From Corynebacterium sp. sy039 (lineage in GTDB: Bacteria; Actinomycetota; Actinomycetes; Mycobacteriales; Mycobacteriaceae), in assembly GCF_007904105.1 (NCBI RefSeq), contig NZ_CP042325.1, positions 1,798,001 to 1,862,000 of the forward strand: a stretch of 64,000 bases of DNA, read 5' to 3'. Shown here piece after piece: positions 1,703 through 35,370 of this stretch (positions within the stretch are counted from its first letter, which is position 1; each line of letters starts with the position of its first letter). The position numbers were made by a program, and so were the translations under genes. A model generated the notes under the pieces. That model was not told the DNA's origin and searched no databases. It worked only from the letters and a program-made list of their open reading frames with translations.

Positions 1703-3363
1703 TTACGCTGCGCGCAGATGTCCGCCAGTAGTAACTTTAGGACGGTCTTTCTTCGCTACAGTCTTAGCCTGCTTAGCGACGTTATCTTTCACACTTTCAG
1801 CGATAACGGTCTTAGGTGCAGGCTTAGATCCTGGTTTAGAATCGACAGGTTTATCCTGCTCAGGTTGTTCAGGATTGCCCTCAGGCTCTACCACTGTAGT
1901 AACAACCTCACCCTGCTCAACCTCTGTGTCTGTGTCAGGCACAGTTGGTGGAACAACAGGAATCTTAGGCTCCTCACGTTCTTCAGGACGCTCACCAGGC
2001 TTCACAGGTTTGTCCTGCTCAGATTCCTGTGGTTCTTCAGAAGGAGTAGGTTCCTGAGTTTCCTCACTTGGCGTTGGTTCCTCAGACTCCTGAGGTTCCT
2101 CGCTAGAGGTTGGTTCCTCGGAATCTCCAGGTTCCTCAGTTTCCTTGGAAGGCTTAGCAGGCTCAACCTCCTCTTCCTCAGAAGGAGTAGGTTCTTCAGA
2201 TTCCTGTGGCTCCTCACTAGGTGGAACCTCAGTCTCCTCATCAGGACAAAGAGTAATATGCTGGAAACCCTGATCACAGTTATCCTCACCACCATTAAGC
2301 GGACCAAAATAATTCACCGCAGGATTCAAGTGAAGATTAAACGTCGACTGATAAGCACCATATTTATATGCACCAGCAGACTCAATGTCAGTACCAATCG
2401 TGTCAAACCGATCAGTGTTACGAGTAACAGCACAGGTACCCACACTCGTTAAACCATGCTTCGTACCTTGCTCAGCATACAAAGCAGCAATCTTCTCATT
2501 CTCCAAAGCGATTTCTTTGTTGCGCTGCTCAATCTCTGCTTTACGAGCTGGAGACGCAGACTCATCCTCAGGAATCATTGGGATAGACACAGGAGGTAGT
2601 TCATCAGTACGACCCCACGCATAATCTTTCAGACTCTGGCAACCCTCTTCAGCGCTACCAGGTCCACCTTCCTCAGAAGAACACTTCCACAGCATATTCT
2701 CCGCACGAATCGGAATATAGGTATCCTCACCAACTGCTTCCACAGTACCGGTAACCTCAAAAGTGAATACACCCAGCGCGTTCAAGCCGATTTGATAGAA
2801 ATCCCAATCAGGCTGATCAGCAAAAGAAGAGCGCTGGACACCATACTGCATACCCTCTTGATCGCTCCGATTCTCAGGATAGCCATCATATTTCAACAAA
2901 GAACCAAAAAGATTCTTCACAAAAGACGACACATGATATGTCTCGTTATCCTTTAGTTCCTCCATTGAATCAACAATAGGAACCTGGTAATCCACCATCT
3001 TTGCAGGAACATAGCTCCAGCTAAAATTATCAGAAGAGTAGTATTTTTGCGCCGGCATATGCGTCAACCTAATCGACACATCTTTCACCGTAGATGGGAT
3101 CATAATCTGCGCACCACGAGAGGTTTGGATGTGATCCTCAGACATCGCCAAAGGTGATAACTGCACCTGCCACGTGACCTGTGTTTCATCCCCCACCTGT
3201 TTTACACAGGTAGAACCTGTATCACAGTTCGCACCACCCCACGAACCACGAACATTATCCCTGCTATCGGCTAATACTGAGGGGGGGGGGCTAGAAAACC
3301 CGCACCAAGCACACTTACGGCAACAGTCGCCGCAGCACGCTTAGCAAAACGATTCAACAACAT
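1703..3363 (-). CDS. Secreted Pro/Glu/Ser-rich surface protein, poly-C phase-variable, out of frame here
   Basis: I do not recognise the family. The start is ATG at 3363 (AGAGG upstream), opening a signal peptide (MLLNRFAKRAAATVAVSVLG...). A run of ten C (3281-3290) follows. As sequenced, the frame ends at TAG after about 30 residues, while the body stays open in the next frame from before 3196 to 1703. Adding one C (or removing two) joins them into a 553-residue protein with signal peptidase site SVLA|D at 32/33. The body has a Cys pair near the mature N-terminus, an ordered domain of about 290 residues, then a long SEEPQESEEPTPSEE-type repeat region and a Lys-rich end (TTGGHLRAA). There is no LPXTG sorting signal or C-terminal membrane anchor. 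It is the downstream copy of a tandem pair. Confidence 0.8.
3281..3290 (-). repeat. Homopolymer tract (C10 on coding strand)
   Basis: Ten consecutive G on the plus strand encode the Ala-Pro-Pro-Pro stretch of the signal peptide. At length 10 the gene is out of frame; 11 or 8 restores it. The length and position are typical of slipped-strand contingency tracts. Confidence 0.85.
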
Positions 3364-3470
3364 TATTTCCTCTATTCTCCTAGGAAAAAGAACAAAAACA
3401 CTTTCCAAGCCATTCTCAGCCCCAAAACACAAAGCTGAGAAAAACCTAAAAGCCCCCTCATCATAACCCA
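3364..3470 (-). promoter_or_regulatory. Putative promoter and 5' UTR of surface gene, downstream copy
   Basis: On the minus strand a TATGAT hexamer (3460-3465) is preceded at 18 bp by TAGGAC, then by an untranslated leader of about 95 bases. The leader holds an 8-bp hairpin (TTCTCAGC/GCTGAGAA, 3413-3441) and a purine-rich ribosome binding region. The same elements recur upstream of the other copy, which supports function. Confidence 0.4.
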
Positions 3471-3482
3471 AGACATAAAGAA

Positions 3483-3509
3483 AGTCCTAGCACCAATGGT
3501 GCCAGGACT
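3483..3509 (-). terminator. Terminator of the upstream surface gene
   Basis: Arms AGTCCTAGCACC and GGTGCCAGGACT pair with one mismatch around a 3-base loop. On the minus strand the stem is followed by TTCTTTATG. It separates the two paralogues, so each appears to be its own transcription unit. Confidence 0.7.
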
Positions 3510-3526
3510 CTTGCATGAAACAAAAA

Positions 3527-5262
3527 TTACGCTACGCGCAGATGACCACCCGTGGTTACTTTAGGGCGGTCTTTCTTCGCTACAGTCTTAGCCTGCTTAG
3601 CGACGTTATCCTTCACACTTTCAGCGATAACGGTCTTAGGTGCAGGCTTAGATTCCGGTTTAGAATCGGCAGGTTTGTCCTCAGGTTTTTCTTCCTTATC
3701 CTCAGGCTCTACAACAGCAGTAACAACCTCACCCTGCTCAGCATCAACGTCTGTGTCAGGCACAGTTGGCGGAACAACAGGCTTAACCGGTTCCTCACGT
3801 TCCTCAGGACACTCAGCTGGCTTCACAGGCTTAGATTCAGAAGGAGTAGGTTCCTGAGTTTCCTCACTTGGAGTGGGCTCCTCAGACTCTACAGGCTCAT
3901 CGCTAGAGGTTGGTGCCTCAGAATCAGTTGGCTCCTCTGTTTCCTTGGAAGGCTTAGCAGGCTCAACCTCCTCTTCCTCAGAAAGCGTAGGCTCTTCAGA
4001 TTCCTGTGGCTCGTCAGAAGGCGTTGGCTCCTCAGACTCTACAGGCTCCTCACTAGGTGGAACCTCAGTCTCCTCATCAGGACACAACGTAATATGCTGG
4101 AAGCCCTGGTCGCAGTTATCCTCACCACCAAGCAACGGACCATAATATTGCACCGCAGGGTTCAAGTAAAGATTAGATATCCGCACATACTCACCATACC
4201 TGTAACCACCATGCTCAATATCCTTACTAATCGTGTCAAAACGGCCAGTATCACGAGTAACCGCACACGCACCCACACCAGTCAAACCATGCTTTGTACC
4301 TTGCTCAGCATACAACGCAGCAATCTTCTCATTCTCTAACGCAATCTCTTTATTACGTTGCTCGATTTCTACTTTACGAGCTTCAGACGCAAACTCATCC
4401 TCCGCAATCATAGGAATAGACACAGGAGGCAACTCACCCGTACGATTCCATGCGTGTTTTTTCAAGGGTGCACAACCTTGATCAGGGCTACCAGGTCCAC
4501 CCCCCTCAGAAGTACACTTCCACAACATATTATCCGCACGAATCGGCACATACGTATCCTCACCGACAGCCTCAACAGTACCGGTAACCTCAAAAGTAAA
4601 GATACCTGGCATATTCAAGCCAATCTGATACGTATCCCACGCTGGTTGATAGGCAAAAGAAGACGGATCAGCACCAGTAGTGGAAGTAGGTTGTTTACCA
4701 TTGGTATACTTATAGAAGGGACTTACTTTATAGCGTTCTTCATTTGCTTTATCTACCTGATTATCGTCAGAGATAAAAGGATCACCAGAAAATTCAGCAG
4801 CATCCCTGATGGGAACATCAAAATCTACTTGCTGAGCAGGCACAAACGAACCATACCCTCTATCACTTTCAGATTTGGTCGTTTCGATAATATTTCCATC
4901 CAAATCTTTCCACACATATACAGTAGCGTCATCAGTAGATACCTGCTCTGTTGGCATATGCGTCATCTTGATAGACACATCTTTAACCGTGGAAGGAATC
5001 ATAATCTGCGCACCACGAGAAGTCTGCTTGTGATCTTCAGACATCAACAAAGGCGATAATTGTACCTGCCAGGTAACCTGCGTTTCATCCCCCACTTGTT
5101 TTACACAGGTAGAACCAGTGTCACAGTTCGCACCACCCCATGTACCATGAACATTATCGTAGCCACCGGCTAATACCGAGGGGGGGGGGCTAGAAAACCC
5201 GAACCAAGCATACTCGCGGCAACCACAGCCGCAGCACGCTTAGCAAAACGATTCAACAACAT
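3527..5262 (-). CDS. Secreted Pro/Glu/Ser-rich surface protein, second phase-variable paralogue, out of frame here
   Basis: Paralogue of the gene just downstream, and likewise unrecognised as a family. ATG at 5262 opens an almost identical signal peptide, interrupted by C10 (5180-5189). In the sequenced state translation stops after about 30 residues. One extra C gives 578 residues with cleavage at SVLA|GG. The start of the mature protein (WGGANCDTGSTCVKQ), parts of the globular domain (SPL.MSEDH.QTSRGAQIM; FTFEVTGTVEAVGEDTY) and the C-terminus (KDRPKVTTGGHLRVA) match the sister protein. Residues about 75-160 differ and carry a longer insert (VYVWKDLDGNIIETTKSESD). The Glu/Pro/Ser repeats differ in number. 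No sortase signal is seen; attachment to the envelope is unknown. Confidence 0.8.
5180..5189 (-). repeat. Homopolymer tract (C10 on coding strand), second copy
   Basis: Ten G on the plus strand sit at exactly the same codons as in the sister gene, with the same out-of-frame result. Retention of the tract in both copies argues for selection rather than chance. Confidence 0.85.
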
Positions 5263-5362
5263 TATTTCCTCTATTCTCCTAGGAAAAAGAACAAAAAGCA
5301 CTTTCCAAGCCCTCTCAGCCACAAAACAAAGCTGAGAAAAACCTAAAAGCACACTCATCATA
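5263..5362 (-). promoter_or_regulatory. Putative promoter and 5' UTR of surface gene, upstream copy
   Basis: A TATGAT hexamer (minus strand, 5357-5362) is preceded at 18 bp by CTGGCA. The leader carries a CTCAGC/GCTGAG hairpin and is nearly identical to the leader of the downstream copy. Confidence 0.4.
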
Positions 5363-6601: not shown

Positions 6602-7432
6602 TCATCGCATGGAGTGAGCAAATAATGCGATAGCTGTTGCCACAGACACGTTGAGTGATTCCACCTTATCGCTCATCGGTATCGAAAAACGCATTGACGC
6701 TAAAGAATCAAGTTGCGTCGACGGCCCATGACGCTCGCTGCCCATCAAAATAGCAAGCCGCTGCTGCACCTGTGCGATCTCGCTAATGGGGTGGGCGGCG
6801 TCGGCGCTTAATGTTGCTAACGCAATGCTGTGTTCTTGGACATAGCACACAAAATCGCTGCGCTGCGCTAATACAACCGGCAATGCAAAAACTGTCCCTC
6901 GGCTAGCACGCACTAAACGACGATCCACAATAGATGTTAAGTCACTATCTACTAGCACCACTGCCGAGGCATTCAGCGCACACGCAGTTCTGGTAATAGC
7001 CCCGATATTCCCCGCCAGCTTTACCCCATCTAGCACAATAATATCGCCATGTAGATGTGTAATATCGCTGAGCTGAGCAGGCTGCGGAACCTGTGCCAGC
7101 GCAAACAGACGAGAGCGTTTTTGCGTCCCAAAAAGGTGCTTTGCCACATGAACTGCCAAACGATACACAGGTAATCCGTGTTCGTCGAGTGCCCTCTGGG
7201 TAGGAGCATCAATCTCAGTGTCACCTGTAACAAATACCTCCGTGAGCACAATTCCATGCGCGAGCGCTTGAACGATATTCTCACCGTCATCAATGACAAA
7301 TAGATCGCTGTCAGTATGAGCATTATCCGCGCTGAGAGCTTGTGCAATGCGTCTTACCTGGGCGGTTGTCGGGTCGTCGAGAAGCGGAATGTGGGTAGTG
7401 TGCGGGGAAGAATGCTGCGAAGTATCCGTCAT
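6602..7432 (-). CDS. TrmH/SpoU-family RNA 2'-O-methyltransferase (TsnR-like)
   Basis: A SPOUT-class enzyme of about 276 residues that should use S-adenosylmethionine to methylate a ribose in rRNA or tRNA. The knot motifs are visible: LDGVKLAGNIGAITRTA, then ILMGSERHG and IPMSDKVESLNVSVATAIALF near the C-terminus. An N-terminal substrate-binding domain (residues ~15-100) resembles that of the thiostrepton-resistance methyltransferase and its relatives. The start ATG at 7432 is chosen because a TTGACA -35 and a -10 lie just upstream; an earlier in-frame start (7450) would fall inside the promoter. Whether it confers antibiotic resistance or is a housekeeping enzyme is unknown. The MFS gene follows 13 bases downstream. 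Confidence 0.85.
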   Translation of the reverse strand: MTDTSQHSSPHTTHIPLLDDPTTAQVRRIAQALSADNAHTDSDLFVIDDGENIVQALAHGIVLTEVFVTGDTEIDAPTQRALDEHGLPVYRLAVHVAKHLFGTQKRSRLFALAQVPQPAQLSDITHLHGDIIVLDGVKLAGNIGAITRTACALNASAVVLVDSDLTSIVDRRLVRASRGTVFALPVVLAQRSDFVCYVQEHSIALATLSADAAHPISEIAQVQQRLAILMGSERHGPSTQLDSLASMRFSIPMSDKVESLNVSVATAIALFAHSMR

Positions 7433-7437
7433 TCCTC

Positions 7438-7466
7438 TATCTTGGCACACGCGAACCTAATGTCAA
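7438..7466 (-). promoter_or_regulatory. Promoter of the SPOUT methyltransferase gene
   Basis: A perfect TTGACA (minus strand, 7461-7466), a 17-bp spacer and AAGATA (7438-7443) lie directly before ATG 7432. The mRNA would have almost no leader. Confidence 0.5.
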
Positions 7467-34635: not shown

Positions 34636-35370
34636 TTAGCCGATGTAAGCAGGAACAGCTGCGTTGTCACCAGTAGCACCAGAAGGTACAGACTTCACAG
34701 CCTTACGCTTAGCGTTAGAAGCTAGTGGCTTACCGGTAGGAGCCTTCTTAGCGGCAGAGGAAGTAGCCTTAGCTTTAGCCTTAGGAGCTTCTTTCTTTGC
34801 AGAAGCAGCAGGCTTTGGAGCCTCCTTCTTCTCTTCCTTGGCAGGAGCAACAGGAGCAGGAACAACAGGCTTTGGCTCTTCCTTCTTCTCCTCTTCCTTA
34901 GCAGAAGTGGTAGCAGCAGCCTTGGACTCAGAAGCAGCAGAAGAGGAAGCAGCATTAGACTCAGAAGGCTCTGCATCCGCAGCAGCAGCCTCAGATTCAG
35001 AAGGCTTTACGTCCTCAGAAGGAGCTTCTTCTTTGGTGCTAGCAGGAGCCTCGGAATCAGCAGACTCTTCACCCGCAGCAGGAGTCTCAGACTCAGCAGG
35101 AGCGTCCTTAGCAGGAGTAGTAGAAGGCGCAGGAGACTGAGGCGCTACATCCTCGGACTCGTTACCCCCCCCCTGAGCAGGAGCAACAGGAGTAGAAGAC
35201 TTAACGCTTGCATCGCCAGCATCCGGAGTTGAAACATCAGAAGACTTTTCAGAAGCTCCTTGAAGAGAAGCGCCACTTCCTGAAGAAGCGAAAGCAACGC
35301 CAGTCAAAGAGGAAACAGCCAAAGTTGATGCAGCAGCAACAGCTAGTGCACGTCGAGAGAAGTGGGACAT
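34636..35370 (-). CDS. Secreted Ala/Pro/Lys-rich protein, paralogue B, with G9 tract
   Basis: Paralogue of the next gene downstream, 244 residues. The signal peptide MSHFSRRALAVAAASTLAVSSLTGVAFA|SS differs little from it. The mature part has a Ser/Ala/Glu-rich region (30-150) in place of the Cys domain, then the same Glu/Lys/Pro region and the same C-terminal end. Codons 66-69 (QGGG) are written as a run of nine G. At this length the gene is in frame; a one-base slip would truncate it early. The start is ATG at 35370 with AGGAAG upstream. Function unknown; it ends in its own terminator, so it is likely monocistronic. Confidence 0.8.
   Translation of the reverse strand: MSHFSRRALAVAAASTLAVSSLTGVAFASSGSGASLQGASEKSSDVSTPDAGDASVKSSTPVAPAQGGGNESEDVAPQSPAPSTTPAKDAPAESETPAAGEESADSEAPASTKEEAPSEDVKPSESEAAAADAEPSESNAASSSAASESKAAATTSAKEEEKKEEPKPVVPAPVAPAKEEKKEAPKPAASAKKEAPKAKAKATSSAAKKAPTGKPLASNAKRKAVKSVPSGATGDNAAVPAYIG
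35165..35173 (-). repeat. Homopolymer tract (G9 on coding strand)
   Basis: Nine C on the plus strand encode Gln-Gly-Gly-Gly in frame. In the sister gene a similar Gly-Gly-Gly is written with mixed codons, so the run is not forced by the protein. Confidence 0.8.

Follow-up and report, generated by a model that had tools for sequence, protein, structure and literature searches.

The genome of Corynebacterium sp. sy039, a single contig of 2,236,339 bases, carries 20 paralogous genes in each of which a run of nine to eleven cytosines occupies the same codons of a predicted signal peptide, and we propose, with a probability of roughly 0.87, that each of these genes is an independent contingency locus whose translation undergoes phase variation by slipped-strand mispairing. 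Two of the genes, designated copies A and B, lie in tandem in the 64-kb stretch of DNA analyzed here, termed the window (genome positions 1798001-1862000), and the other 18 are dispersed elsewhere. Judged from their sequences, the 20 genes would encode secreted or surface proteins, each phase-variable on its own, and so make up an Opa-like repertoire that is apparently also shuffled by gene conversion.

A family of 20 genes with a cytosine tract in the signal peptide

In the window, ten-base guanine runs on the plus strand correspond to C10 tracts on the coding minus strand, where they fall at the same codons of two tandem paralogues. The cleavage site that follows the tract, V-L-A, is a prediction read from the sequence by eye and not by a signal-peptide predictor. 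The features of the pair, in window coordinates, are as follows.

3281..3290, minus strand: C10 tract of copy A, in the signal-peptide codons, directly ahead of the predicted V-L-A cleavage site
5180..5189, minus strand: C10 tract of copy B, at the codon position seen in copy A, with 73 nt from the A of the ATG to the tract
3271..3363, minus strand: frame of copy A as it stands from the ATG at 3363, 30 residues and then a stop (closed)
1703..3280, minus strand: body frame of copy A past the tract, 525 codons, free of stops
5170..5262, minus strand: frame of copy B as it stands from the ATG at 5262, 30 residues and then a stop (closed)
3527..5179, minus strand: body frame of copy B past the tract, 550 codons, free of stops

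A preliminary description of this DNA had reported the paired ten-base tracts at matching codons, the closure of both frames after about 30 residues and the open bodies beyond them, all of which we confirm; its body lengths of 497 and 522 codons denote the same frames counted from an internal GTG, the full lengths being 525 and 550.

The pair belongs to a much larger family. With the body of copy A as query, 41 matched stretches were found spread over its own genome, and a motif search for the tract together with its flanks returned 20 sites, every one of which reads as a gene with the tract at the same signal-peptide codon. These copies sit in about ten places of the genome, with their tracts at the following genome positions.

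611298, 613051, 880267, 882085, 1639334, 1642624, 1687708, 1689539, 1691226, 1780960, 1782580: tracts of 11 copies
1801281, 1803180: tracts of the window pair
1918200, 1921153, 1973890, 1975771, 1978839, 2058704, 2179880: tracts of the remaining copies

One additional relative, near 1976000-1977100, lacks the tract; its N-terminal part is in frame and the frame of its tail is broken. A family of two tandem paralogues only is thereby ruled out, and the on/off contingency locus of the preliminary description, supported by 18 further copies, gives up its "twin" character for that of a 20-gene repertoire.

The tracts comprise two of C9, 14 of C10 and four of C11, with no C8 among the 20 copies. 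As they stand, the frames of these paralogues within one genome are open in five cases and closed in 15, and in all 20 the state agrees with tract length and phase modulo three; this includes the copy at 1918200, which has a different phase ahead of its tract and a state that fits that phase. Two of the closed copies have a tract length other than C10. The same genome thus contains naturally open paralogues, and the arithmetic by which expression had been predicted at tract lengths of 8 or 11 was right in kind, although the 8-base form is absent from the family. Past the tract, none of the 20 bodies (453-550 codons) has an internal stop, and throughout their combined 30,972 nt the longest homopolymer run is 7 and no frame-breaking indel is present.

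Maintenance of the tract and selection on the bodies

Codon usage sets the tract apart from the remainder of the genes. Among the 881 proline codons of the 20 bodies, CCC makes up 1.7% and CCT 64.5%, whereas the proline codons of the tract are exclusively CCC in all copies. The 73 bases ahead of the tract vary at 18 columns among 19 copies, the one copy of different length having been excluded from this count. The tract has been kept against the prevailing codon usage in a signal-peptide region that has otherwise diverged, and is therefore not there for the sake of the protein.

The bodies themselves are constrained irrespective of the frame in which they currently stand. Median ratios of nonsynonymous to synonymous divergence (dN/dS) are 0.31 for the 105 closed-closed pairs, 0.246 for the ten open-open pairs and 0.283 for the 75 mixed pairs, at a median dS of 0.71, and the closed copies are under purifying selection. 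In a neutral simulation, the proportion of bodies still free of stops was 0.2% at 0.10 substitutions per site and 0 of 4000 at 0.30. In a tree built from the 20 bodies together with two outgroup proteins, the open state requires five changes, close to the mean of 4.6 for shuffled states, and so appears independent of descent; strong support is limited to 5 of the 19 inner branches of this tree, and two of the open copies sit on long branches. The on/off interpretation of the preliminary description thus gains much support from the mixture of tract lengths, the coexistence of five open and 15 closed copies, the selected and intact bodies, the retention of the tract against codon usage and the scatter of the open copies. 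Its picture of a population in which cells would make none, one or both of the window proteins is still a prediction.

Sequence variation among the bodies and possible gene conversion

In pairwise comparisons, several conserved blocks and the part near the C-terminus show little nonsynonymous difference. Across alignment columns 101-250, nonsynonymous difference approaches synonymous difference, with values of 0.45 vs 0.57 in the block from column 100 and 0.54 vs 0.57 in that from column 225, and lower values between. The corresponding segments of the window pair, whose limits are approximate and taken from these alignment columns, are listed below.

2840..3055, minus strand: hypervariable part of the body of copy A
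4673..4954, minus strand: hypervariable part of the body of copy B

A silent-site permutation test (2000 permutations per pair, uncorrected for multiple testing) flagged 20 of 190 pairs at p<0.01 and 43 of 190 at p<0.05 as having identical runs of unusual length, and the minimum attainable p of 0.0005 was reached by six of the 190. Dispersed copies also share exact blocks of up to 260 bases, the next longest being 227, 198 and 157 bases; the longest block belongs to the closest pair, which is possibly a recent duplicate, and the other three to more distant pairs. Together, the long silent-site runs and the shared blocks fit gene conversion among the copies, with regional constraint on silent sites as an alternative.

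Upstream regions and probable expression units

All 20 upstream regions contain the hexamer TATGAT, 85-101 nt ahead of the ATG, and a conserved leader block, CTTTTAGGTTTTTCTCAGC, is exact in 19 copies and has one mismatch in the remaining copy. In the window, the upstream features are the following.

3460..3465, minus strand: TATGAT, -10-like element of copy A, 96 nt ahead of the ATG
5357..5362, minus strand: TATGAT, -10-like element of copy B, 94 nt ahead of the ATG
3434..3452, minus strand: leader block of copy A, recognized by conservation between copies
3481..3511, minus strand: terminator-like stem-loop of 14 pairs between copy B and copy A, recognized by consensus match

The promoter-like designation derives from conservation of the upstream region between copies and not from a promoter scan, which gave 6 sites vs 4.7 in shuffled sequence and hence no excess; the terminator scan overall gave 3 sites vs 3.4 in shuffles. 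With shared upstream elements at every copy and a hairpin between the window copies, each copy looks like its own unit, and each is probably transcribed as such.

Distribution and identity of the protein

Homologues are rare in the genus. A single-sequence search of 242 Corynebacterium genomes, in which the best six candidates per genome were scored (the window's own genome giving 8 matches there), found them in five other genomes, and a profile search of 401 genomes drawn from the larger taxonomic family found them in six other genomes, one of which belongs to another genus. Weaker profile matches in two genomes, G040 and G043, have a stop inside. Carriers identified by name, from an 11-row alignment scan of named genomes, are C. 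wankanglinii, C. meitnerae and C. macginleyi; a scan of named genomes with the window protein as query had no match. In five species inspected individually (G241, G112, G087, G236 and G102, with G112 and G236 lying outside the sample of 401), the gene is present in one or two copies. The nearest relative, G241, has two, one of which carries a C10 tract about 190 bases ahead of the start (positions 1143-1152 of the stretch inspected) and not in the coding sequence. The coding tract motif itself occurs in none of the 241 other genomes of the genus, and among the genomes searched, only that of the window shows both an increase to about 20 copies and a tract in the coding sequence.

Neither the 497-codon part of copy A nor the 522-codon part of copy B matched a Pfam or NCBIfam model at E<=1, and a profile of 11 relatives matched no chain among Protein Data Bank sequences at the same threshold. 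A structure model built from six sequences is of low confidence (mean pLDDT 53.9, pTM 0.63), and we draw on it solely for the suggestion that the fold may be mostly beta.

G/C runs and mismatch repair across the genome

The genome as a whole is enriched in long tracts. It contains 33 G/C runs of at least 10 bases, as against 1.2-2.2 expected from Markov models of order 1-3 fitted to window positions 6001-64000 and scaled to the whole genome; 18 of the runs lie in the 20-copy family and 15 elsewhere. The count is the union of two complementary position listings and was checked against the genome's 51 ten-base C words, a number that ranks fifth among the 242 genomes of the genus, behind G020 (328), G008 (213), G120 (61) and G057 (60). 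Among the places listed, the words of G008 and G020 are mostly packed near contig starts and are probably artefacts. G057 and G120 have more ten-base C words than the genome of the window but lack this tract motif, and other contingency repertoires may exist there.

A NucS_C domain was found in the genome of the window and MutS_V was not, in searches whose control genomes behaved as expected. For Mycobacterium smegmatis, the account in PMC11551767 reports that NucS does not repair indels of 1-2 bp. With NucS present and no MutS found, slippage in the tracts would go uncorrected if the corynebacterial NucS behaves as that of M. smegmatis does.

A second family and a shared C-terminal tag

Seven of the 15 runs outside the 20-copy family are G11-13 tracts located 49-51 bases ahead of the start codons in a second gene family, which encodes giant secreted proteins, at these genome positions.

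56863, 63032, 65143, 265652, 309938, 553244, plus strand: G tracts of six members
2111711, minus strand: G tract of the seventh member

An exact TGGACATTTTYAT precedes the tract in six members and has diverged in one, and the tract is possibly a promoter spacer. Six of the seven frames read whole, with 634 to 1974 codons from stop to stop, and the seventh gene (near 2105600-2111700, the one with its tract at 2111711) lies in pieces of 1123, 516 and 266 codons.

Proteins of both families terminate in V-T-T-G-G or a near variant, and a VTTGGH(L/F) tag sits only a few residues from the C-terminus. A search for DNA that would encode VTTGGH gave 28 sites in the genome (for example, window positions 1716-1735 and 3540-3559) and none for a reversed control. 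By position, these sites fall in the 20 copies, in the broken relative, in six genes of family 2 and in an additional tract-less protein that ends near 169385; the seventh family-2 gene ends in VTTGGI. No hydrophobic stretch lies beyond the tag, which, from its sequence and position, is a possible sorting signal.

Other tracts were noted in the same genome. A type I methyltransferase gene (HsdM_N, N6_Mtase) at 959545 is interrupted at a C9 tract, with an apparent C-terminal part in another frame, and is a candidate phase-variable methyltransferase. G10 tracts lie upstream of ABC-transporter genes at 944294, 1051760 and 2040129 and of other genes at 977539 and 745757, and some of these five, by eye, fall between -35-like and -10-like hexamers. 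Of two more G10 tracts, one (918305) lies close to the start region of an MFS transporter gene and the other (445845) close to that of a 321-codon open reading frame (ORF) of unknown kind. Within the window, a nine-base G/C run at 35165-35173 is another possible contingency tract; it lies in an open, Ala/Pro/Ser-rich ORF of 244 codons (34636-35370, minus strand) that has a signal-peptide-like start. The window also contains, at 6602-7450 on the minus strand, a gene for an RNA methyltransferase of SpoU/TSNR_N type, related to NshR/TsnR and below the model cut-off (250 vs 425 bits).

Proposed mechanism and alternative explanations

According to our model, DNA polymerase would slip on the C tract within the signal-peptide codons, and the gain or loss of one C would change the reading frame. 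Translation of a closed copy would end about a dozen codons or fewer past the tract, and an open copy would yield the secretory protein. The tract lies ahead of the predicted signal-peptidase site, and the mature protein would be alike at every open length, with variety arising from the choice of the open subset of genes and from gene conversion between copies. We infer slippage in living cells, export and surface location from features of the sequence, and the role would most likely lie in varying adhesion or antigens on a host surface.

Several sequencing platforms are prone to errors in long homopolymers, and the frame states could conceivably reflect miscalled tract lengths in genes that are for the most part truly open. 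This explanation, for which the concern over homopolymer error voiced in PMC4746626 and the single length of 14 of the 20 tracts can be cited, appears quite improbable: the same assembly calls lengths of 11-13 at the seven family-2 G tracts, so that ten was not a calling ceiling; the 30,972 nt of bodies show no frame-breaking indel; no single length would open all copies, since that at 1918200 is in a different phase; and the tract and its enrichment stand even if the lengths are wrong. The prevalence of C10 could be accommodated by programmed slippage of RNA polymerase or the ribosome on the tract, whereby closed copies would still yield some full-length protein at a set ratio, and transcriptional slippage at runs of A and T is reported for bacterial insertion sequence genes (PMC1088944). 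A programmed site should keep one length and one phase, however, and five copies are already open while two closed copies have another length; we therefore regard programmed slippage as improbable in place of switching at the DNA level, and both may operate at a low level. The least probable of the three alternatives is that the closed copies are dead genes of a decaying family that would supply no more than stored sequence for gene conversion. The closed state of 15 of the 20 copies, the silent-site runs suggestive of conversion (20 of 190 pairs at p<0.01, uncorrected) and the decay of the tract-less copy speak for this alternative, but the 15 closed bodies are without stops, the dN/dS of closed pairs is 0.31, and upstream elements are retained in 20 of 20 copies; a store for conversion only would need neither promoters nor tracts.

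Several observations nonetheless weigh against switching of the 20 genes by tract slippage. In Cutibacterium acnes, tract lengths are reported mostly to follow clades, which the authors ascribe to slow accumulation and not to active modification (PMC4746626), and by analogy the same could hold in this Corynebacterium. Fourteen of 20 tracts are exactly C10, whereas free drift might have produced a wider spread; this uniformity could come from gene conversion or a mutational equilibrium, but selection for one length could account for it too. At 5 of 20, the open fraction does not clearly depart from one in three, and we make no case for selection for silence. Constraint is slightly weaker among closed than among open pairs (0.31 vs 0.246, the latter from only ten pairs), and the homologous gene has no G/C run of at least 7 bases in the five species inspected. 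Finally, the evidence comes from the sequence of one genome assembly.

A more elaborate arrangement, to which we assign slightly less than even odds, would be a layered corynebacterial engine of antigenic variation in which the 20 C-tract genes act as a combinatorial on/off code, conversion reshuffles their variable segments, and the seven giant secreted proteins, which have the C-terminal tag in common with the first family, are tuned by upstream G tracts; epigenetic switching could be a further layer, through the methyltransferase gene interrupted at a C tract, and no MutS that would correct tract slippage was found in this lineage.

Relation to known systems and significance

Large multigene repertoires of phase-variable surface proteins are textbook features of Neisseria, Helicobacter and mycoplasmas, and to our knowledge the phase-variable tracts of Mycobacterium tuberculosis lie in individual genes and form no paralogue repertoire. 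The closest parallel is with the Opa proteins of Neisseria, which are described as products of scattered paralogous surface-protein genes whose frame is set by a repeat in the leader peptide, with variable parts and recombination (PMC3960869). The Opa genes differ in their CTCTT pentamers, in encoding outer-membrane beta-barrels and in numbering up to 11 in gonococci. In the genome of the window, by contrast, the repeat is a C mononucleotide tract, also within the signal peptide, the genes number 20, the protein has no named domain, and the organism is a Gram-positive actinobacterium in which NucS is present and no MutS was found. Given the different repeat and the lack of detectable homology, we do not file the family as Opa; by analogy, it would work like Opa without being a member.

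Tract-based variation has also been described in other actinobacteria. The C. acnes account lists 54 variable tracts, 96% of them G/C, in or upstream of genes that include surface proteins (dermatan-sulphate adhesins); 72% of these tracts are intergenic, however, their lengths are largely clade-bound, and the available text describes no 20-copy family with one tract position (PMC4746626). Gardnerella is reported to have many tracts, some in surface-protein genes, with in vitro length change for one GA-module gene, but about 70% of its G/C tracts are upstream of ORFs and, in the text available, no single expanded family is described (PMC11287997). For the related M. tuberculosis lineage, tract indels are reported to act as phase variation and to escape removal by NucS (PMC11551767; PMC11898584). 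Beyond the actinobacteria, the adhesin SabA of Helicobacter pylori is reportedly switched by tracts in both its promoter and its coding region (PMC2715451); SabA is a different protein, and in the genome of the window the coding and upstream tracts belong to two separate families.

Among the papers listed by searches of an open-access library, none, judged by title or the start of the abstract, reports such a system in Corynebacterium, and the name of the genus is absent from the main text of a recent review on phase variation (PMC11868660). If our interpretation is correct, a 20-gene version of such a repertoire in Corynebacterium would mean that random diversification of the envelope extends to these bacteria too, and a gene that such genomes list as a frameshifted pseudogene may be functional and simply switched off.

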